This document shows positions 6,156 to 58,665 of a DNA stretch of 64,000 nt, piece by piece (position 1 is the first letter of the stretch; each line of letters begins with the position of its first letter). The notes beneath the pieces were generated by a model, which had not been told where the DNA came from, did no database searches, and was given only the letters and a program-made list of their open reading frames with translations. This stretch comes from Protonemura montana. Lineage: Eukaryota; Arthropoda; Insecta; Plecoptera; Nemouridae. The DNA is taken from NCBI GenBank assembly GCA_947568835.1, contig OX387607.1, forward strand, positions 6,076,001 to 6,140,000, given 5' to 3'. The position numbers and the translations under genes were made by a program.

Positions 6156-7788
6156 AACATTGGCGCAGGTGTCGAAGTACCCAATTGTCGAACTGTACAA
6201 GAGCTCTTTCAATCTAAAATCTGTACAAAGTATAAGAAAATACGAGACATAGGAATACCAAGGGATGTTTTCTTACATGTTGTATATCATGCCTCTTGGA
6301 ATAGCTTCCCGATTTACATTTTAAACGTTGTCCTGCCGTTTGATCCTGCCTACACACTCTTTGAAAGCTATTTTATCGATACCTTAAGAAAGACGGGCGC
6401 AAAAATGTCCGCATTTTCCCCGACGGCAAGACGCAAAGCCTCTTAAATCCGGCCGTCTCGCGCAATTGCCAAAGAAAACACGCTAATGTGGCAGCCGTAG
6501 CGCATTGCCCGTCGTTACACAACTTAAGCAAATGTTGACGTAACACGGACACGCAGAAAAGTGTCTTAGAGAATTGAGATCGTCTCGACCGGTACAACCC
6601 GGCTACAAAAAACGATTCTAAAAAAATTGTTGCCAAAAAATTTTCGCAAATTCTCCCCAAATTAGGTCATGCCAGCCCCTGTGTGAAGGCGTCGTCGACA
6701 ACAACAACAAAAAAAAACACTAAAAACCAGCGTGCCACGCATTTATCAACACCGTCTGTGGAGCATGTCAGAGAATTTCGGAACGCGCACGCAGTAAAAA
6801 CATGCGTGTTGCTGCAGTTGAAATTTAGATGCCAGCTTTTTGTCAATGTTCCAAAGTGGTGGTCGCGCTGTCGTCAAATGGAACTGGAGATTTTGACGTG
6901 TAGTTGAAATGTGGTCGGGTCGCGACTCCAGTTGAACGCAACCACAAGTGTGAATAGAGGTGAGTAATATGTCCTGTATGACCACTTATTTTGAAAACTC
7001 CCCGAAACATAAATACGCTTTTACTAAGTGGTTTTAGGTACACCCCCCGATTTGAGCTCGGAGCTGATGAAATGGCCAACCAGGGCTTGCTAAATTACGA
7101 ACCAAGAGTGTAAAACGGGCATTCGCATCATAATTACTCTGCACCAAAATCCTGCAGACCTGCACGTCGATCACGTAACTGTTTAAAGACAAATTTTCAA
7201 AGTAACCGAATCGAGCAACTGGACACATTTTATCGTAGAACAGGAAAAATAGAAATTAGTGTTTTAAAGAGGATATTTTGAGTTTAACATCAGATCTAGA
7301 AAAATGAACATAGGAATTTGAATTCCTTTACAGCCCCTTTTCGGGAAACTGCGAGTCTAAACTCTAAACTTGGTATGTGCCTGAAAGATCTCAAGATCTG
7401 AACAGGCATGGTATTTACCATGCAATTGAACGTTGGGCGCACGTATGCTGTTCTAAGGTTGCAACCAGCGCCTCGCAAATATCGTGTCGGCTGTCCACAC
7501 ATGGTCGTGGACCGCGCGCTATGGTGAATCACCGGGACGACGACAAGTGGGTGCCACCCGATGATGCCAGAACACGATCACACTTCCCGTCTGCAGACGA
7601 ACAAGCCACGAGCGATTGGCGCTTCCTTCCTGTTTCGCGACCAGCATCCATCATCTTGTCTAATTGGGTAAAGCGATTCGTCGTCGTCGGTCACTCGGCG
7701 TAAGTCTGTGCCAGGAATAACTCAAGTTCTAGCGAGGCAATTGAATGCGCCGTGGTAAAATAAAATTACAACGAAACAAGTTGTTCGG

Positions 7789-8089
7789 GAGAAAGCTTGT
7801 ATAGGGATGAAAGTTAGTACAGTAACTTCATTCTCCTTGCTTATCAACCTCTCGACAGAATTTCCTGGTGACAGCAACAATCCTGTTGTTCCCGTTGCAC
7901 AGTCCTTTGGAAGGGACGTCAAGCCGGTGGTCCTCTTGGTGCACTTCGACAGAAGAGGCTACGTGCCGGCATCGGGTTTCCTCTCCTCCCTTCTAGGCTA
8001 GGACAGGTTCAGCATCATCCACTCATCCACCGACGTCATAAGACCAGTGCTACAAGGCCCGTTATCAACACAGTGCGTCGTTAAACTCC
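7789..8089 (+). mobile_element. 5S-SINE family copy 1, lacking the 5S head
   Basis: The segment matches the body and tail of the SINE copies at 31763-32170 and 56409-56841. Shared blocks include ATGAAAGTTAGTACAG, CTTGCTTATCAACCTCTCGA, AAGGGACGTCAAGCCGGT, GGCTACGTGCCGGCATCGGG and the terminal CAGTGCGTCGTTAAA. The 5S rRNA-like head is absent, so this is a 5'-truncated copy, as expected when reverse transcription stops early. It lies in the presumed unc-76 intron, opposite to that gene's strand. Confidence 0.7.
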
Positions 8090-11000
8090 ACAAACCATCA
8101 TCTTAGAAACAAGTGCCAGTTTCGTGGCGCGCTCTATTTTCAACATCTGCGTTTAAAGAGAAGCAGTTCTAAACAAACAAAAAAACGGCTACAAATACAA
8201 GAACGCCACCGCAAGAGGACTGTTCATTTATTTTTTTATGATTCACTCGAATGCCGGCAGACTTTTTGCGAAAAAGCAAATAGTCCCATAATGCCATGAG
8301 AACAGTCGATCTCTTAAAGTACCATGGCCTAGCTAAATGTGGGCTGCAAGCAGCGTAAATGTCGCGCGAATGCAAGTGGGTGCCCGATGCAGCTGTGCAG
8401 AGGCGAATGGATCACTAGATTACATCATCGCCATCATGCCCATAGTTAAAAGTTAATTCTCAAATCATCATTACGGTTTTTTTCACCACATGTTTAGTTC
8501 AGAGAGATGACGTGGTCATCTTTCATCAGACTATTCGTTTGAAACAATCTCTAAATCATCGGAATCGTTATAAATGACTCGCGTCAATTTGTGTTCCATG
8601 ACATGTTCCACGTGGAACTGGCATGTGTTGGTTACATTGATCAAGAGCGCTGTCAAATGTGATGTTTGAACTAATGGACGAATCGGGAATAACACAAGGC
8701 CTCTGGTCAAACAAACAAACCGAGATAATATTGAGTCTGAACTTCTAGTCAAATACAAGATCAGACGGAACAGGTTCTTTATAGAGCTCGGATGACGTTT
8801 GACCCATGACAACGGCATCCCGGCGGTCGCCAATGGATACGACCTTCCAGTACGAGCGGGGAGATGAATTAATTCCGCGTGCCTTCGCGCAACCAATTAC
8901 GTCACGGATCCAATCACGAGGCGATTATCTTCGTAAACGCGGTTGCCGTTGGTAACGGGACGATGGACCACGTGACAGAGTGTTGGCACAGAAAATTGTC
9001 AATCATTCTCGACTTAACAAGCTCGCGTTACGCCCAATTAAGAAAGTAAACTGTAAAACGAACTTTCGGTAATGTCAAAACGTTATTACCGCTTTTTATG
9101 CTGAGCAATTCTGCACGAAAATCGGTTGATATTGGTTATAATTACATTTTCCATGAAACCACGCGTGCACCTGTTGTCCAAAAAGAGCCAAAAAAACTGT
9201 TTCATGTGTGTGTATCATATTCACATTACAAACATGTAAACATTGTTGCCTTCATGATGGTGCACCAGACTGACGCAGACAGACATAGCACCCCCTTTTG
9301 ACTCATTCAGAAGAGCAGACAGCCCCCATCGAGCGGTGTGCGACTCATTGTCTGTCCCCTCGTCAGTCGCCGCCAGTGAATCCTCACTTGCTTCCAATGG
9401 CTGTATGTGTGTGTGTGGGGTGTCCCCTTTGCACACGAGACGCAACATTCGTACTTATGACAGACCGCCGACAACAACGAGGAACCTGGCAAGTCTTTGT
9501 TTACACATTGTAGACACTGCGTACGTGATATGTCGCCAGATTGGCTGTCTTCGTCTCTGTGTAGTCTGTGAAAGATGGACCGAGTGTCGATGTTACAGCG
9601 TCAATGTGGTCGTGGACATCGTCTACAGAATTTCATCAAACGTGGACGACATTGTCATGTTTTTTTTTGCCCCTTTCAACACTGCAGCGATAAAAAAAAT
9701 GCAATTCGCGTCCTTTTTTTTTGCCTTTTTTAGCCTCGAAATTACTTGCAATCTTGGAATGCTAGTTCTAACTAATCTAAAAGTCATCGCACGCCATTTT
9801 GGTTCAGTTGAAAACTAATTTCGTCGCGAAATGTCAGCGATAAGGAGAGTCTCGATGAGTTAGCCGGGGTACGTGATTCCCATGGGAAGAAGGAACATTT
9901 CAAGAGACAAATGTCTTGAAAAAAGCATTCTATGAAAATGAATGTAAAGATTAGACGTTGAGAAAAAGGCACATTTGAAAATAAATCATATCAACGGGTC
10001 ATGCCGTCGTTGCAGGTGAGGCGACAGTCGCCCGCTAAACCATGGAGACTAAGCGACGCGCCATGAAGCTACAAGTATGACCCAACGTAGCACTGCAGTC
10101 GCGTTATATGGAGGCAGGGGGTGGGTTTGGGGTGGTGAGAGGGTGGCTAGGGGGAAGGGATTTATTGATCGGCCGGCCGGGCCCGTTAGGACGGCGTACT
10201 GCGCCGCGACCCATGGGGAAATGTATGCGGCGTCGCGTCGGCGATGCGTCGTTAAGCGGAGTGAGGCGTTGAAGGAAGCGTGTCGTGATGACGGCTAAGT
10301 TGGGTGGTTTGGACGTCTTGATTTCAAAAGACTCGGTCTGTCACGTGGATTCCAGTAAATAAGTCATTGAAAGAAATGTCTTCCTTTGGTGGTGACTGCT
10401 GTGGCCTAGTTTGTGAAATAGGATCGAAAATCTTTGTCTTTCGGCACTGGAAATGTAAATTACAGCAACATAGCAGGGCTAATTAGAATATGTTTGTTAG
10501 AGAGAGTTACGAGTCCGTAGCGAGTCATGAACTTAACTATGAATGGCAGAAGGTATAAGTACGGGTGCGCTTATGTGAATTGCGATAAATTTCGACGTCA
10601 AAGAGATAAGCCTCGGTAGAACTTCAATAGTGAAGCCATTAGTTAATTGTTAAAACAACCCTTAATTATGTGATTAGTGCCAGAGAGGGAATTTCAGAGA
10701 GGGTTGATTCAATTATAAGACTGCCATACTAGCTTCGATGAATGCCACTTTCTCTCACAGCCTAAGAGCTTTCTGCTTTATACAACTCCGTTCGGTCTGG
10801 AACGCAACACAGAAAAGGTAATCCGTTAATTGTGAACAAGCTGAGGTCCCAGTGCATGCGTAGCAACACAAGACCCGCGTTGAAAAAAAAAGAAGCGCAA
10901 AGAAAAAAGGTTAATCTTCTAGAGTGACTTTACTTGTCTCGAGTTTACACATCCCGGCACACAACTGCAAGTAATTTATCGAACCAGTGCCGTGTTTTGG

Positions 11001-23479: not shown

Positions 23480-23784
23480 TATTTTATTATTAACAACAAC
23501 AATACAGCAACGAATCCAACGTCAAATTGGAGTTATTCTAGTTTGACAGGTTGTGACGTGATATAGCATCACTAGAATCAGAGTGACTGTGAGTATTCAC
23601 AGCCTTGTGGTTCTACTCCTTGGAGATCTGTCATTCTCATCAAGTACACTAAAATCGTCTCACAAGGCCAGTGTCCAAGTAGCTCAACGGTTCAGAGCAA
23701 CACCCGCGGAGGTGGAGATCGGGGTTTGAGTCCGCGTTTGGGCATCAATTTTTGAGACGGTTATAGTGTTATTAATAATAAAAA
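23480..23784 (+). mobile_element. ~305-bp element with AT-rich terminal inverted repeats and a tRNA-like end
   Basis: The left end TATTTTATTATTAACAAC (23480-23497) is inverted at the right end, where TATTAATAATAAAAA ends near 23784. The right part, 23731-23784, matches either arm of the palindrome at 25638-25766 with about one difference. A tRNA-like segment lies just inside the right end. Homology to the 25.7-kb locus continues left of the terminal repeat (23433-23479, CTTGCAAACGCTTGCAATGC), so the true element may be longer than its apparent ends. No transposase is present; it is non-autonomous. Confidence 0.6.
23673..23744 (+). pseudogene. tRNA-like segment (tRNA pseudogene or tRNA-derived retroelement head)
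   Basis: It folds as a tRNA cloverleaf in most parts. Acceptor bases 23673-23679 pair with 23737-23743, allowing GU pairs. The D arm is canonical (TAGCTCAACGGTTCAGAGC, the Pol III A box). The T arm is near 23720-23736 with loop TTTGAGT (B box GGTTTGAGTCC). The anticodon arm is weak: four pairs (CACC/GGTG) and a six-base loop, so no anticodon is assigned and it is unlikely to be a working tRNA. Its 3' end runs directly into the terminal repeat of the surrounding element. Confidence 0.55.
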
Positions 23785-29990: not shown

Positions 29991-31762
29991 TGTCGTCATG
30001 AAAAATGTTTCTTCAAATTTCAACAACAATGTGTACGTACTTTGTAAATTCCGAAAAGTTATTTTATAAAACATGAAATTAGTCTGTGTATTTTTGATTG
30101 TTTCAAAAATATTTGACAGTTTTTTCTAAGAAAAAAAACGCGGTAGATGTAAGTTCAGAACAAGCATATGTTTGTTCTCAGCAAACTTGGTTCAATTCAG
30201 AGCAGGAGTTTGGCCGCTGGAGCGACAATCAACATAGCAACATAGAAATGTTCTTTTTCTGGGGAATGTGAAACCGAAAATTTCGTTTCTTTCGCTACGC
30301 TCATCAATTACGTTTCCCCGCACATGCGTACTTTGAATGAGGCTAACGAGAAACAACGTAATCAATCGACTTCGTTTAAACGTCATCGTTCGTTTAGTGA
30401 CGTCACAATCATTGGTTTTAAGACGCATTCATTAATATTGAACCGGTTTGTAAAATTTTATTAAAATTTCCTAGAAGAAACGCTGCGAAACTAGATAGAA
30501 CTGCATCAACTAACTGTTATACCAAAATGAAAACAATCTGAGCGTGTGACGTACCTGAGCGAGGACTCGGCGAGAAAAACGAAGCCAGAAAACAACAATG
30601 ACGCACTTCGAGGTGTTTAAGTGCGTACAATTTTGACAGATTTAGGGCCTTTACATTGGTCGACGAAGGATTATTATCTTGGACTAGATGTGCCCCCGAT
30701 GCGATCGCAGCTGGCGTGAGTGTATGTGTATTGTGGATTTCATTATTCTTTTCTAGTCTTGCGATCAAGCCGAGAAGACAGAATCACGAATTAGTTTGTG
30801 ACAGCTATGCAGTTTGATGGCGCGATTTACAAAGTTTTAGTTACCGCACCAAGTAAGATAGTTTTGCCGTTTGAAGTCAGCAAAAAATGAAAAATAAATG
30901 AGCAAACTATTAACTTTTGAACAGAAAAAAAAACGATCGAATCTTGTTTCATCAAAAGTGTGGCCTTGATTTGATTAAGTCGGGATATAAAACAACGCCT
31001 TTTCAAAAATTATCCAAGGTATTAACGATTTGAGAAAGGAAAGAAAGAACAAAAAGAAAGCTAGTTGGAAAAAAAGGCGAAAAAATGGATTGGGCGTAAT
31101 CTAGCACCATGTCTGGATTGTAAAATTTTCTATCCGTTTGCATAAATTAAAATGATATATAAAAAATGTACGATTCGAGATTTCATACCTTCAGATTTTC
31201 CCAGTAAATCCGCAACATTTCTAGGTCGTAGCTAAAACGTGCTGTGCTCGCTACGATGCGTTTTACTAAATAATATATATATCACATTTGAACGTGTTTT
31301 AATTGGCGATTCGGTCTCGACGGGATACGTTATTCAATGAACCAACGAATGGTGCGAGCAAGCATTACCACACGACCTTGTCCTTGGCGTGATGTTACCG
31401 TAATCGAACGAGCAAAATATCGTTAGCGAATGAAATCGTTTGAAAAAAAAAACGGTAAAAAACGAACAGATCGCGAGCTCATTTTAAATAGTCGAAAAAA
31501 AAAACGTCTTTGGCCATTTTTATTTTTGCCATAGGGCGTACCGTCCTCCATAAAGATACGTTTGAGTTTCGATCGTTAAAGCTATTTCAGTGGAAGATAA
31601 ACGCCATTCGGTCATAAAAGATGGCAAACAGAGTCGGTCTGTACAAATATCTCTAACAAATGGAACCAATCATGTGAATATAATTGTCATCGTTTTATAT
31701 CCTCCCGTAGGGGATGGCATGGTAGGATTCAGGCATGGCTCATGACGCATTTTTTACCCGAA
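29991..31762. other. Intergenic, no gene recognised
   Basis: AT-rich with several A-runs. Minus-strand open frames at 30192-30428 and 30517-30768 have no recognisable domain or splice context. Confidence 0.35.
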
Positions 31763-32170
31763 CCGTTTGGCGTGTTGGAAACACCGGTTCTCGTATGATC
31801 ACCGAAGTTAAGCAGCACTGCGCTGGGTCTGGTATTGGATGGGTGACCATCAGACACATGACCAGTTATGTTCTGGTGAGAGGTTGGAGGGATGAGAGTT
31901 AGAACAGCAACTTCACTTGCCTTGCTTATTAACCTCTCGACAGGATAGGTTTGTGGAGGAATCCTGATGATCGCGTTTTACCGTCCTTCGGAAGGGACTT
32001 CAAGCCGGTGCTCTTTGACAGGAGTAGGCTATGTGTCGGCACCGGGTTTCCCTTCCTCCCTCTAAGCTAAATTAGGTTGATCGTCATCCTCATAATCATC
32101 CGCTCATTCACCGACGCAATTAGACCAGTGTCACATGGCTAGGTGTCAAAGCAGTGCGTCGTTAAATACC
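31763..32170 (+). mobile_element. 5S-SINE family copy 2, with 5S rRNA-like head
   Basis: The head at about 31763-31852 is derived from 5S rRNA: ACACCGGTTCTCGT, GATCACCGAAGTTAAGCA, CGCTGGGTC and TTGGATGGGTGACCATC occur in 5S order and spacing, so the 5S internal Pol III control regions (A box and C box) are retained. The first ~17 nt of 5S are lacking. The body follows (GAGAGTTAGAACAGCAAC, CTTGCTTATTAACCTCTCGA, GGCACCGGGTTTCCC) and then the tail CAGTGCGTCGTTAAATACC. Copies at 7789, 45970 and 56841 share these parts. This fits the SINE3 class (5S-derived SINEs). Confidence 0.85.
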
Positions 32171-33479
32171 AGTAATCAAGCAATCATGGTACACCGTAGG
32201 ATTTTGCGATTGATATTTTTCCGTGTGCTTAGGAAGAGTGAATTGAAAGAGCTAGGAGACTCATTGAAGTCGACCTTCCCGATGACCTTCTTTACTCATC
32301 TCGAATCACGGACATTGGGGCATTGACGCATTGTATTGTGCGGTAGAAACGAAGGTGTGACTTGCGAAGTGCAAAACACTTTACCTGTCGAAGGTGAGGA
32401 AGAAGACGTTTCAGTTTTTTCAAAGTAATATTTTCTTCTATATATATTACAGAGATTAGTCGTATTAATTGTCTTGCTTAAATTGTGAATTTTTGCTATG
32501 GGCCCCGATATTTTATTATTATGAACATTAAACACAGCTAAACTGTTTCAAAATTTTGTAATTTCTAAAAATCTCCAAAATATAATCCAAATATCTTAAA
32601 TTATCTTCACATTGGAATAAGATGATACTAAAAAAAGGATAATACTGATCAAATAAAAACTCTCGTGTAACCTTTTTCGAGCTGATTTATCTGTTTACAG
32701 CCATTAAAATCATAAAAAAATTCTACCTAATACCCATAGTTAGGGAAACACTATTTTAAAACATAATATTTAAATTTTGAAGTCACACTTGAGAAACACT
32801 TTTAGAGAGGTCTTTCGGTATGATAATATTGTCATTTAGAATCATTCTTGCCACTAATATGATGGTGATCTCTGACTCAACGACAGAATTTTCTTCAAGA
32901 CAATGAAAAGAAACCTCAATGTTGACTGCTGCATTACCATCGGAATGCAAAAACTCTTGCCACGCGTGGAACGTGTCGGATTATTTACATCACGGCAAAG
33001 GGTTTCTAGAAAATATCAGAAAAGCACGACCTGAGAGAGATCGTTGTTAAGGTATGTCGCTCTCGGCACTCTCGGATCAAACCTAGCAGGAAAATTCCAT
33101 CTTGGCGAGAGACGTTGAATTTTCTACGAGGAAAACACACAGAGTCATTATTTTCTTGTCAGTGTTAATAAGTTAGTTCAACCGAGATCCTTTTATGATT
33201 AAAACTGTCATTTGAATCTAAATTCTGATGCCGACATCGCTGAATCATCTAAAAGGACAGAAAGATTAATTCAAAGAGTGACAGTAAAAATGTTTGTTTC
33301 AAAAATATCCCCAAACCTTGAGCGAACAAAAAAAAAAACCTGTAAAAAGTAAAAAAAAAATGACAGCGATCGCTCCAGCTTCTAATGTGTAATTACAAAG
33401 ACTTCAATCACTTCAAGCGGAGCGTAATTAAACCGCTGATTTTTATTTAATACAACACGTGGTAAACACGCGCGGCTAA
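32171..33479. other. Intergenic, no gene recognised
   Basis: AT-rich sequence upstream of the candidate promoter of the acetyltransferase gene. No open frame with a known motif was seen. Confidence 0.35.
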
Positions 33480-44526: not shown

Positions 44527-47500
44527 CTATCTCTTCTTGAGCTGCAACAGATAAGCATCTGGACCCAAGCTGATCGTGATGCTGAGGTCTAAACGGTTTA
44601 GGTCGGCCAACTTCAGATCAGTGGTAACTTTAAAGCGACGCAGCAGAAGACTGAGCATGACCTTCATCTGGAAGAGTGCGTATTTCTGACCGACACAGTT
44701 GCGTGGGCCGGCGCTGAATGGGAGGTACGCGTAGGGGTGTTTTTCACCCTCGGAGCCTGGCAACCACCGGTCCGGCATAAACCTGCACAGGACACGTGAA
44801 GAGCATTCAGGATTTGGACATTTTTGGTTCAGAATCATTGAAATTAAGCAAAACAGCTGTTGAGTACCAAATGTTTACTGAGGTAGGTATATATTGGAGT
44901 TGTGTCCAACTATAAGTTTTCAAGAATAAAAGCTAGCAAGGCGGATATTACTGTAAAACGCTTCTCTCTCCTTGACCAGCAACCACGTGAAATTATTGAG
45001 TGGATAAAAAAGTATACGCCAAATTTAATTCATATCTTTATTCTAATATATTTCTACCATAGTCTTTGACATATTTTGCCACGATAATCTGTTTAAATTT
45101 GTCATTTGGTGCTTACTCATTATTTAGGAAGCAGAAACGATCAAGGCTCATCTAAAAGTACTTACTTTTCCGGCTCTGGATAGTGCCTAGGGTCCCTATG
45201 CACCGCGTAATTGATGACGATACTCGAGCTCCCCGCTGGTATCGTGAAGCCACTGGGCAAGGCAATATCTTCTGTGATCGCCCTTGGTAACATAGCGACC
45301 ACCGGGAAGAGGCGTAGAGTCTCTCGGATGACACGGTCCAGCGTGGGCATCCTAGATAAGTCTTCGTGGTTAGCCGGACGGGCCATGTCGTCGGCGAACA
45401 CTTCGGCCATCTCCGTATACAAAGCGTCCTGCCATTCCGGGTGGATCGAGATGAGCAACAGTAGGAAGGACATCGTGATGCCGGTGGTTTCTAAGCCTGC
45501 TGCTGCCATAGTCGTCACCTGTATTGGGGGAGAGTAAAAAGGGAGTCGTCAGCATGATGACAGAAGAGATGACATGTATTTGCAGGACCAGCACTCGAGT
45601 TGAAATGGCCAATCTTGCTTGCTTGCAATATTTATATACCCAAGATAATGTTGCAAGAATTATCTGTGATCGGACATTTTGAGTATTTCTCTTATACAGA
45701 AATATAAATAAAAATATAACTATGATATAAGGAACGAACGGTTTGATATGATGCCGACACGTAGCCTTCTTCTGTCGAAGAGCACCAAAGGGACCACCGG
45801 CTTAACGTGCCTTCTGAATGAAGCTGCTGCACTAACTTTCATCCCTCCGACCTCTCTCCCTAACAGAACTGGTCGTGTATAAGATGGTCATCCATCCAAT
45901 GCCTGACCCAGCAAAGTGTTGCTTAATTTTGGTGATTTCACGAGAGCCGGTGTTTCCAACACGCCGTAACTTCCAAATTCATGCGCCAGCTCACCTCATC
46001 CTGCATTTCCTGCTCCGTGAGGATGGATCCCTGCGCTTCAGACGCCTCGATGAGCATGTCGAGGAAGGCGGTCACTGTTTTGCCCGACGCCGTCACGATG
46101 CCGGGGCGTCGTACGCCTCGTCGGTAGTCGGCGAGCTTGCGAGCTATCACCTCATCACTGAAGTCTTTTATCCTCTGCAAGAGACAACGCCAGGCGGGGG
46201 TTGCATATGGGACAGTTTTTGAAACACAGCAAACACATTGGGGTTGACGTAGGTCTGGATTGTACAAAATAAATTCTCAAAAGCCCAATACGACGGGGTT
46301 TAAATTGAAAATTCCCGAAACTTTAATTTTCTAAAAGTGAAATTTTGCATAAAAAATACCCTTTTTAATTTTTCGGGAGAAAATTTTTCGGGAGATTGCG
46401 CTTTATGGGACAACTCATGAATGAAATTTCAGTCATGATTTCAGTGATGAGATTTCATAATACTTGTTATATCTGTAAACAAATAGCAAAGAAATAATTG
46501 TTCCAACAACAAAAGATCTTGGAACGAAGAAAGCTTTTGAGCAAAAGAAAATTAGCGGACATCAGCGGAGATGATTTGTAGTTAATAAGAAAAACTATTT
46601 GAAATGGGTTTTGAACGCTAAGTAAAGGGCTACTAAATTTCTCGACGTTTAGTTTTTAAGTTTAAGTTTAAGTTTTAAGTTTAAGTTTTTAAGTTATTGA
46701 CCCTGATTATTTTGTTTAGGTGCATTTAGGAAGCTTGAACTAGGTAATTGTTATAATCTTATGTGGTTCTTTTGTTATTGGAAAATTGCCAGGACTGCTC
46801 TAACCCTTGAAGAAGTAACTAGTACATGTTACGAAACGTCGGGTAATTTAGTAGCCCTTTACTTAGCATTCAAAACCCATTTCAAATAGTTTTTCTTAAA
46901 ACTAGTGCTAAGGATAAATCAAGTAGACATGAGTCTAAAAACCATGATTTGTAGTTTTTTTTAATGACAGTTCGCCGGTATGTCTACCTAAAACGACTGG
47001 TGGTGCCTCATATTCTCTCGCTGAACATTAATTGTAATAGTGTATTGCATATTATTGTGTATTATTGTGTATTGTAATTGTGTATTGTAATTATGTAATT
47101 GTAATTGTGTATAACAAGACTGTTTTGCGAATGAGATTTGAATGAATGTGTTACCTCGATAATGGGCTTGGCCTTCCTTCCATCGGCCGTCAAAGGGTAG
47201 AGCCATTTGTTCAGTAGCCACGGTTGCAGAGCGCGGCGATGTACCAACTCAGTTGCGTCATAGAGAAGGTTTTGGAAGTCGCTAAATCCTTCCTCTTGAG
47301 TGTTCATCACCGAACCTGCGTGAGTCGGGGGCAATGGGTACTTGGTGAGACCATTCCGATCCTGTTATGTTCCTAGGGAGAGCGAGGATCGTTTCACTGG
47401 CGGGGTTGTTAATCGATTTTGTGTGTGATTCTAGTCATAAAATATTCTCTTTTTAGATTTATTACCACTACTGACCTTTATTGGTGGTCAGATGACTGTA

Positions 47501-56057: not shown

Positions 56058-58126
56058 TCAGCTCGAGTCCATGCTATCCGAACGAGAGCATGGGGCTTGT
56101 TCGTCGACTTGGTCATGACGACGTTTGTTCAAGCCGTTCGTTGCTGACCCTTGACCGGCTTGCAGTGTCCGTTGAGCTTTGTAAATAGGTTCAAACTCAG
56201 ATAGCTGTGCGAGGAAACCCTCGTTGGGATTGATGCAAAAACGGCGACTTTGCACGCGGGTATATGCTTCCCTGTAAGAGCCAAGCACCAACATCAGTTT
56301 GTGGCTTTAAAAAAATATTAGCATTTCAGGTGAAAAATATCTAATGACTATTCTAATATAAATTAACAGATAATACGTTACAAAGGGTAATTTACCCATC
56401 CCTAATTATTGTGTTTAACGAGGCACTGTTTTGAAAAAGGGATCTGTGGCACTGGTCTAATGGCGTCAGTGAATGGGTGGATGATGATGAGGATGATAAT
56501 GAATCTAACCCAGCCTAGAAGGGAGGAGGGGAAACACAGTGCCAGCATGTAGCCACTCATGTCGAATAGCACCAAGGGACCACCGGCTCAATGTCTCTTC
56601 TGAAGAATAGTACCTACATCTCAAAAAGCAGGATTCATCTACAAATCCATGCCATATAACATAAGCAAGGAGAGTGAAGTTGCTGTACTAAATTTTATCC
56701 CCCCAACCTTTTTTCCACTTTTTTTTCCAAACAGAACTGGTCATGAGTATGATGGTCACCCATCCAATAGGTACCTGACTCAGCACAGTGTTACTTTACT
56801 TCGGTGATCTCATAAGAACCGGTGTTTCTTACATGCCAAACTGTTTGGTACAATCCATGCCTATTCTAGTATGAAAAGATTTCTATTAAATCTGATTCTT
56901 GACACTTATCCCTAGTAGTACAAATGAACAAAAAAGTCACAAGTATATAGGTCTTATTAAATACCGACCTTGTCATCAAAATTAGGGACATTTTCTGCGT
57001 AGGTAGCTGTGCCAGAATATGCAATTCAACCAATAATTTTAGAACAATCTTAAATACTTTACTTAGAGGCATTCTTAGCTTAGTATGGCAAAGTAAGCTG
57101 ACTTACTGGCTGGAAAGGCCATATTTTTCCATGACATAAGCCAGAGTGAGAGCCGCGCTTCGAGAGATGCCCGCGTTACCGTGGATAAGCGTTTTGCCGC
57201 CGTTATTGAGGCATTCATCAATAAACTGGCGGACCCGTGCAAAGTGGCAGATTATGTTTTCCACTACTGAATCAGCAATGTTAAGTACAAGGTATCTGGA
57301 GAAGAAAAATTATGAAATTAGTCGACGCTACGCCAATTGTACTTTTTTGCAAACCGCAAACTTTATAAAATTTCTATAAATGCTACACATAAATCTATCT
57401 CATGTCATATCACCAGATATTTATCAGAGGCAATACCCAATAATTGGGGATTGATTTTCGAAGTGTATGGAAATTAAAAAATATGTACATTTAATTTTTT
57501 AATTTGGAATCTTGATACAGTTCTTTTGAAATCCTAATATCAGACTATTATCTAATGAGAGAGTATTTCACAAATCAATGTAGAAGTAATTTTTATTTTT
57601 CATTTAACTTTGGAAATTGTTCTACTTGAATAGATAAATGAAAAATCATTATTAGTACACCAATAATGTGCCCGAACGTACCTACGACAGAAAGATTGAA
57701 TGCTCTCAAATTTTACATCTCAAATTTACTTACTGAAATCTATCAGGGAAGTTTGGCCGTATAAAATGTGCTTCTATATCTTGTCGAACGCAAATGATAT
57801 GAGTGATACCATGGTGTGTTAATACATCAAGTTTAGAGCGCATAGCAGCAGAATATGGTCCAAGGTACAACCCTGGAATAATCTCTTGCATAGTTCTACG
57901 CATGGTGTATACCCAGTCTTCACTCTTTCCATTAACCGGGGGCATCTTCGGAAACTGCATTCGGGAGCCCTGATTCTGATAGTCCTGAAACTGTAAGCAA
58001 AGTCATGAAATGCTGGTGGACGACTTATGCCGTTGTCTAAGCATGTCAGCCATAACCAAACTTTATTTGCCTTCCAATCTCATTTGCAGAGGAGCAACTT
58101 ACATCTGTGCTCGAATGGGTACTCAT
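56058..58126 (-). CDS. STYX: Serine/threonine/tyrosine-interacting protein (pseudophosphatase)
   Basis: STYX has a dual-specificity phosphatase fold without catalysis; the mammalian protein binds phosphorylated partners, anchors ERK and blocks the F-box protein FBXW7. Exons on the minus strand are 58126-58103, 57984-57734, 57295-57107 and 56271-56058, phases 0, 2, 2, giving 225 residues (human STYX is about the same length). Matching blocks are MRRTMQEIIPGLYLGPYSAA (36-55), HGITHIICVRQ (66-76), YLVLNIAD (93-100) and HGNAGISRSA (130-139), where Gly131 replaces the catalytic Cys, the hallmark of STYX; then RRFCINPNEGF (164-174). The first exon encodes only MSTHSSTD; the start was chosen because its GTAAGT donor joins in frame. 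Intron 3 contains a sense-oriented 5S-SINE. U6 lies divergently upstream. Confidence 0.96.
56409..56841 (-). mobile_element. 5S-SINE family copy 4, near full length
   Basis: On the minus strand it starts near 56841 (GTTTGGCATGTAAGAAACAC), has ATCACCGAAGTAAAGTAACA and TTGGATGGGTGACCATC in 5S rRNA order, then the shared body (GTACAGCAACTTCACTCTCC, GAGCCGGTGGTCCCTTGGTG, GGGTTAGATTCATTATCATC) and tail (TTAGACCAGTGCCACAG, CAGTGCCTCGTTAAAC). It lies wholly inside STYX intron 3, in the same orientation as STYX. It contains an extra ~70 bases in the middle relative to copy 2. Confidence 0.85.
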
Positions 58127-58558: not shown

Positions 58559-58575
58559 GTACTCGCTTCGGCGGT

Positions 58576-58615
<40 letters not shown>

Positions 58616-58665
58616 GGCCCCTGCGCAAGGATGACACGCAAAATCGTGAAGCGTTCCACATTTTT
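58559..58665 (+). ncRNA. U6: U6 spliceosomal snRNA
   Basis: The 107-base sequence agrees with U6 along its full length: the 5' stem-loop GTACTCGCTTCGGCGGTAC, then CATATACTAAAATTGGAACG, the invariant ACAGAGAAGATTAGCATGGC (ACAGAGA and AGC elements), the CCCCTGCGCAAGGATGACAC stem and CAAAATCGTGAAGCGTTCC, ending in a T run that terminates Pol III. Relative to human U6 the 5' stem has changed from GTGC/GCAC to GTAC/GTAC, which keeps pairing. With a correctly placed TATA box and an intact core, it is a working gene and not one of the common U6 retrocopies. Confidence 0.97.

Follow-up and report, generated by a model that had tools for sequence, protein, structure and literature searches.

We find that the four copies of a short interspersed element (SINE) in a 64,000-nucleotide stretch of the Protonemura montana genome, hereafter the window, are very probably members of a SINE3 family that is large and partly young and whose promoter segment has grown into tandem arrays, a SINE-derived satellite at an early stage. 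Repeats are commonly sorted into SINEs on one side and satellites on the other. In this genome a single SINE family presents the full series, from single copies through two-unit copies and short arrays to a 48-unit array, with a single precise junction.

Copies of the element in the window

A sequence-only reading of the window had placed four copies of a 5S-headed SINE in it. When a 442-bp consensus, derived from 31 copies of the same genome, was used as a blastn query, five matching stretches were obtained in the window. These bear out four copies at the places proposed, with coordinates that were good to about 10 bases, and the copies are 80–87% identical to the consensus (Table 1). The copy at 45.8 kb had been given as one block; it is present, in two pieces, with an inner deletion in which consensus 163-227 is gone and with nothing beyond consensus 297. 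Because all that follows this position is missing, the copy has no tail, and the claim that the four copies share a common body and tail has to be amended to that extent. Within the heads, TTGGATGGGTGACC is found exactly at window positions 31835 and 56754 and with one mismatch at 45886; with up to two mismatches allowed, 0.25 matches are expected by chance. Among the window copies, GAAGTTAAGCA is exact solely in the one at 31.8 kb.

Table 1. Copies of the SINE, parts of their heads, and other features in the window.
Feature	Position	Strand	Basis
SINE copy, nearly full-length (31.8 kb)	31758-32171	+	blastn of 31-copy consensus; consensus 2-428, 86.4% identical
5S rRNA-like head of 31.8-kb copy	31757-31877	+	Rfam RF00001, 61.2 bits
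GAAGTTAAGCA in head of 31.8-kb copy	31804-31814	+	
TTGGATGGGTGACC in head of 31.8-kb copy	31835-31848	+	
SINE copy, diverged (56.8 kb)	56403-56849	-	blastn; consensus 1-434, 80.2% identical
5S_rRNA match in 56.8-kb copy	56849-56725	-	Rfam, 39.3 bits (gathering score 38)
SINE copy, 5'-truncated, without 5S head	7782-8094	+	blastn; consensus 113-432, 82.2%
SINE copy in two pieces (45.8 kb)	45965-45816 + 45821-45752	-	consensus 13-162 + 228-297, 87%
U6 snRNA, complete match	58559-58665	+	Rfam, 116 bits
tRNA-like match	23673-23744	+	Rfam, 35.8 bits
Open frame, 193 aa	48585-49166	-	

Size and anatomy of the family

Exact words from the element were counted in the source genome (258 Mb), each with a reversed-pattern control. 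A 25-mer from the body gave 4,071 exact matches, a 29-mer from the head 1,201 and a 25-mer from the tail 1,957, and every control gave 0. Since copies of the element diverge, these counts are lower bounds. In viral contigs the body word was not found as an exact match. When a young copy served as the query, 44 matches were listed, of which 40 are near full length and 97–100% identical (40 of 2,509 candidates were scored). Positions 268-271 of the young consensus read TTTT, where the window copy at 31.8 kb reads CTCTT. Four T can act as a weak stop for Pol III; the young lineage that bears them has nonetheless spread near full length.

Of 36 loci entered into a test for target-site duplication, 4 were dropped by an exact-word filter and 32 were tested. 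Of the 32, 27 are flanked by exact direct repeats of 8 bp or longer (median 11), compared with 3.2% of shuffled flank pairings, and most of the repeats measure 9–13 bp. Loci L004 and L007 have one flank in common and probably record one event. At the 3' end, CGTTAAACACCACA is followed by a short tail of repeated AAT, AATC or AAAT, and the element as a whole is about 430 bp long (body on a scale of ~0.44 kb) plus a short (AAT)n-like tail. Inspection of 18 further tail sites without the exact body word revealed no LINE; all 18 are SINE copies, and five of these are 5'-truncated, start at consensus 168-373 and lie beside unrelated DNA. The duplications, the simple-repeat tails and the 5'-truncated copies give this element the anatomy of a SINE that is moved by a LINE. 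With its 5S homology, body, tails, flanking duplications and thousands of genome copies, its identification as a large, partly young element of the SINE3 type, as the sequence-only reading had supposed, is well supported by sequence comparison. That reading had named the lack of further copies with shared termini as a possible objection to its own proposal; such copies number in the thousands. The family may already have an entry in Repbase or Dfam.

A 5S-derived promoter is also found in another class of element. As described in the available text of PMC10886601, the TRIMs Ajax and Cassandra, which are small LTR retrotransposons, carry 5S-derived promoter boxes, and thus share with the present family a Pol III promoter of this origin in a non-autonomous retroelement. 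If the element were a 5S-bearing TRIM and not a SINE, one would look for LTRs and for the short fixed duplications of those elements, 5 bp in Ajax (PMC10886601, in the same text). Instead, the copies finish in a simple-repeat tail without a second LTR, and 5'-truncated copies joined to other DNA exist. The tails, together with flanking repeats mostly of 9–13 bp, contradict the TRIM reading, which we find hardly conceivable.

A protein query with one reverse-transcriptase fragment was used in a search for the partner LINE, and the best 150 of 1,439 candidates were scored. The sequence-only reading had also suggested that the 3' part of the SINE may be borrowed from such a LINE. In the 50 best alignment rows for 15 stretches taken downstream of reverse-transcriptase matches, the SINE tail was not seen as the end of a LINE; for several elements the stretch probably started beyond the 3' end. 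Two of the 15 hold SINE copies of their own (L094, L107). The reverse-transcriptase matches represent many families, with 37–64% identity to the one fragment among the 150 places listed. A number of them lie in open frames of ~1000 aa, and two occur twice in the small contig C31.

The head and the host 5S rRNA gene

Host 5S genes were taken from the source genome as the best 47 of 52,711 candidates scored with the Rfam 5S model (108.7–117.5 bits). Each copy in the window was aligned locally to the host 5S gene and compared with 1000 dinucleotide shuffles. The three copies to which a 5S-like head had been ascribed reached scores of 90 (the copy at 31.8 kb), 70 and 67, with shuffle maxima of 28, 27 and 26, so that the proposal came through the comparison with the host gene that had been suggested for it. 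The copy at 7782 scored 14 with a shuffle maximum of 28 and thus has no head. For the family consensus against one of the host genes the score was 93, and the maximum in 1000 dinucleotide shuffles was 34. This alignment spans consensus 17-92, and since small gaps after about position 67 cancel, both of its ends fall at the same base number in the element and in 5S rRNA. Base 1 of the element therefore corresponds, in register, to base 1 of 5S rRNA. Judged by this alignment, the first ~92 bp of the element are descended from the host 5S rRNA gene.

At the usual positions of the promoter boxes in 5S genes, the young consensus matches box A at 13 of 15 bases, box C at 13 of 18 and IE at 3 of 6.

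The host 5S genes themselves were seen at the left end of C11 (C11:70-105743, L042-L050) in a repeating unit of ~9.5 kb that contains three 5S genes, two on one strand and one on the opposite strand. A histone 3' stem-loop (Rfam, L043:1804-1850) lies beside one host 5S gene, and this adjacency suggests that histone and 5S genes are combined in one tandem cluster.

Tandem arrays of the promoter segment

In some SINE copies consensus 49-139 is tandemly repeated with a period of 91. The repeated unit takes in box A, box C and what lies between them, and reaches a short way into the body; the word AAGTTA stands both at its start (consensus 49-54) and just beyond its end (140-145). A 22-base junction of this unit has 16,001 exact matches genome-wide, with a control of 0; at 91 bp for each junction this corresponds to 0.56% of the assembly (~1.46 Mb). 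A longer word of 113 bases, made of the unit plus the junction, has 1,085 exact matches (control 0). The window contains no 91-bp junction, even when 3 mismatches are allowed, and for this reason the arrays could not have been seen by the sequence-only reading.

In the 27 array copies that were fetched, the number of box-bearing units ranges from 2 to 48. Thirteen of these copies start at consensus 1-4, and 16 extend to consensus 412 or beyond. There is a second array type, in which consensus 1-92 is repeated head to tail as a 92-bp unit; its junction has 634 exact matches genome-wide (control 0), and one locus (L108) holds six such units plus part of a seventh. A tandem repeat at L054:9034-9678 also has a period of 92, in seven copies, with a sequence unlike that of the SINE unit.

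Assemblies are error-prone at tandem repeats, and one might suppose that the arrays are artefacts of this sort. However, the 16,001 junctions are spread over many separate places, the units differ from each other, and many arrays are short, with 2–7 units. We consider an artefact highly improbable.

The first 21 body words on contig C1, taken in listed order regardless of arrays, belong to 11 copies with two or more units, 8 with one unit and 2 with none, a share of 11/21 that applies to a single chromosome end and should not be read as a rate for the whole genome. In one of these 11 copies (word at 1,685,856), 156 bases separate the end of the array as fetched from the body. All 11 array copies are in the first 1.7 Mb of C1, where they account for 11 of the 13 words; beyond this point the count is 0 of 8.

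Chromosomal position of the arrays

On contigs that were listed whole, the arrays of both types favour chromosome ends, as judged on C1 for the 91-bp unit and on C1-C4 for the 92-bp unit. C1 is 33.1 Mb long and has 90 exact 91-bp units. Its last 4.1 Mb contain 84 of them, in 43 clusters, its first 1 Mb contains 4, and 2 lie in between; 88 of the 90 are thus at the ends. Ordinary heads also prefer the ends of C1, less strongly, with 16 of 61 in the middle. When three extra heads of one array are merged, the middle of C1 holds 2 of 48 array clusters and 16 of 58 heads, and these proportions differ with p = 0.0014 (Fisher test). For the 92-bp unit, all 76 junctions on C1-C4 (53 of 53 clusters) are no more than 6 Mb from an end, a limit that was chosen after inspecting the list, and such parts make up 41% of the length. 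On C5 (20.95 Mb), one 92-bp junction lies in the middle, at 10.26 Mb, among the matches listed.

Origin of the arrays

The following sequence of events would produce these arrays. Directed by the internal 5S promoter, RNA polymerase III would start at base 1 of the element, as expected from a head that is in register with 5S base 1, and a LINE reverse transcriptase would then copy the element RNA into new places. The poorly matched IE box, the TTTT run of the young consensus and the searches that yielded no partner LINE speak against this part of the account. Within SINE copies that are ordinary in other respects, the 91-bp segment would first have been duplicated between the two AAGTTA words, presumably by microhomology, and the arrays would then have grown by slippage or unequal exchange. 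Duplication followed by growth of this kind is what is ordinarily assumed for such repeats, and it agrees with the bias towards chromosome ends. Direct evidence for growth in place is weak. Averaged by array over 22 arrays with at least three units, the identity of units within arrays is 0.9485 and that of shuffled units 0.9449, and 37 of 1000 shuffles were as high. The pooled values, 0.958 within and 0.937 between arrays, are dominated by the one 48-unit array.

A second possibility is that the multi-unit copies constitute a mobile subfamily, so that arrays have spread mainly by retrotransposition, with their length changing en route. The near equality of unit similarity between and within arrays is in keeping with this, as are the 13 of 27 array copies that possess the true 5' end. 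Exact flanking repeats of 7–9 bp were present in 7 of the 27, counted without a control; a tenth match of SINE-like letters and one 6-bp match are not included in this number. One array copy with a flanking repeat, L062, starts at consensus 101, like a truncated insertion. A tree of 74 copies (24 multi-unit, 50 single-unit), built from the parts outside the arrays and restricted to elements with a unit and at least 230 aligned letters, bears on the same point. The single/multi label requires 8 changes on this tree, with a shuffled mean of 20.4 and none of 500 shuffles as low, as would be expected of a mobile subfamily, but this clustering is partly built in, because a young single-unit element was the query that brought in most of the single copies, and 50 of the 68 inner branches are open. 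One clade consists of 33 single-unit copies (SH-aLRT 96) and includes, on a long branch, the diverged window copy at 56.8 kb. Further, the first, middle and last units of the arrays have the identical consensus, so that no multi-unit master is visible, and growth in place accounts better for arrays being more biased to chromosome ends than ordinary heads are. If inner units gave rise to transcripts, 5' ends would be expected to accumulate near the predicted inner start at consensus 92; among the 14 array copies with an inner 5' end, none lies within 4 bases of it, and we see no sign in these sequences that inner units start transcripts. For these reasons we regard the mobile subfamily as possible, if somewhat doubtful, and favour growth inside ordinary copies.

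A bolder proposal is that copies with 2 to 48 tandem 5S-type promoters are themselves transcribed and retrotransposed, as a mobile SINE with multiple promoters. In the available parts of PMC3272025 and PMC8010984 it is argued that a 5S promoter needs chromosomal upstream signals. An array may free the promoter from this need, because each later unit has a fixed upstream neighbour. We think this proposal unlikely. If it were true, the same process would be making a satellite out of a SINE and placing possible TFIIIA-binding sites by the thousand near the ends of chromosomes. The effect of a multiplied inner Pol III promoter on the success of a SINE becomes testable in this family. SVA, likewise non-autonomous, also contains inner tandem units in variable number (VNTR), and this variable part is not known to be a 5S-type promoter.

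Relation to known elements

SINEs derived from 5S rRNA have been described in fishes, some mammals, a beetle and Lepidoptera (PMC3272025, PMC8010984, PMC10886601, as far as their available text goes), and a fungal example also appears in the literature, in the portion available. By description and not by sequence, the family is close to the SINE3 elements of Lepidoptera (HaSE3, PxSE4, PxSE5, LaSE2, CsSE2), which, in the available parts of PMC3272025 and PMC8010984, have a 5S head with promoter boxes, a body of a few hundred bases, flanking duplications, a simple-repeat tail and hundreds to thousands of copies. Their tails, where given in those parts, are mostly (TGA)n or (ATGT)n, unlike the AAT type found here, and partner LINEs are named for two of them (HaSE3 with HaRTE1, PxSE5 with PxLINE1.1; PMC3272025, PMC8010984). 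As to promoter arrays, the word "tandem" is absent from the available text of PMC8010984, and none are mentioned in that of PMC3272025.

The arrays themselves resemble the SINE-derived satellites (sSats) of squamate reptiles. In both, part of a SINE is repeated in tandem, the end unit continues to the SINE's own terminus, and there are many loci with a preference for chromosome ends (PMC10702118, available sections). The squamate sSats come from tRNA-headed SINEs and reach up to 1000 units (same sections of PMC10702118), whereas here the SINE is 5S-headed, each 91-bp unit includes both box A and box C, and the longest array fetched has 48 units. According to the available text of that study, its authors did not know whether sSats occur outside squamates, and a 2025 review, as far as it is available, lists SINEs among the sources of satellites and cites the squamate work. 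Among listings of open-licence papers we found no report of SINE-derived satellites in an insect, nor of any that stem from a SINE with a 5S head. The present arrays extend SINE-derived satellites to a 5S-headed SINE in an arthropod genome, the point that the squamate study (PMC10702118, as available) left open.

Other features of the window

The remaining features of the window in Table 1 include a complete U6 snRNA match and a tRNA-like match. The latter may be a separate tRNA-derived repeat, because similar letters flank a SINE insertion in L031. The open frame of 193 aa looks like the N-terminal region of a CYP4 cytochrome P450 from an arthropod.
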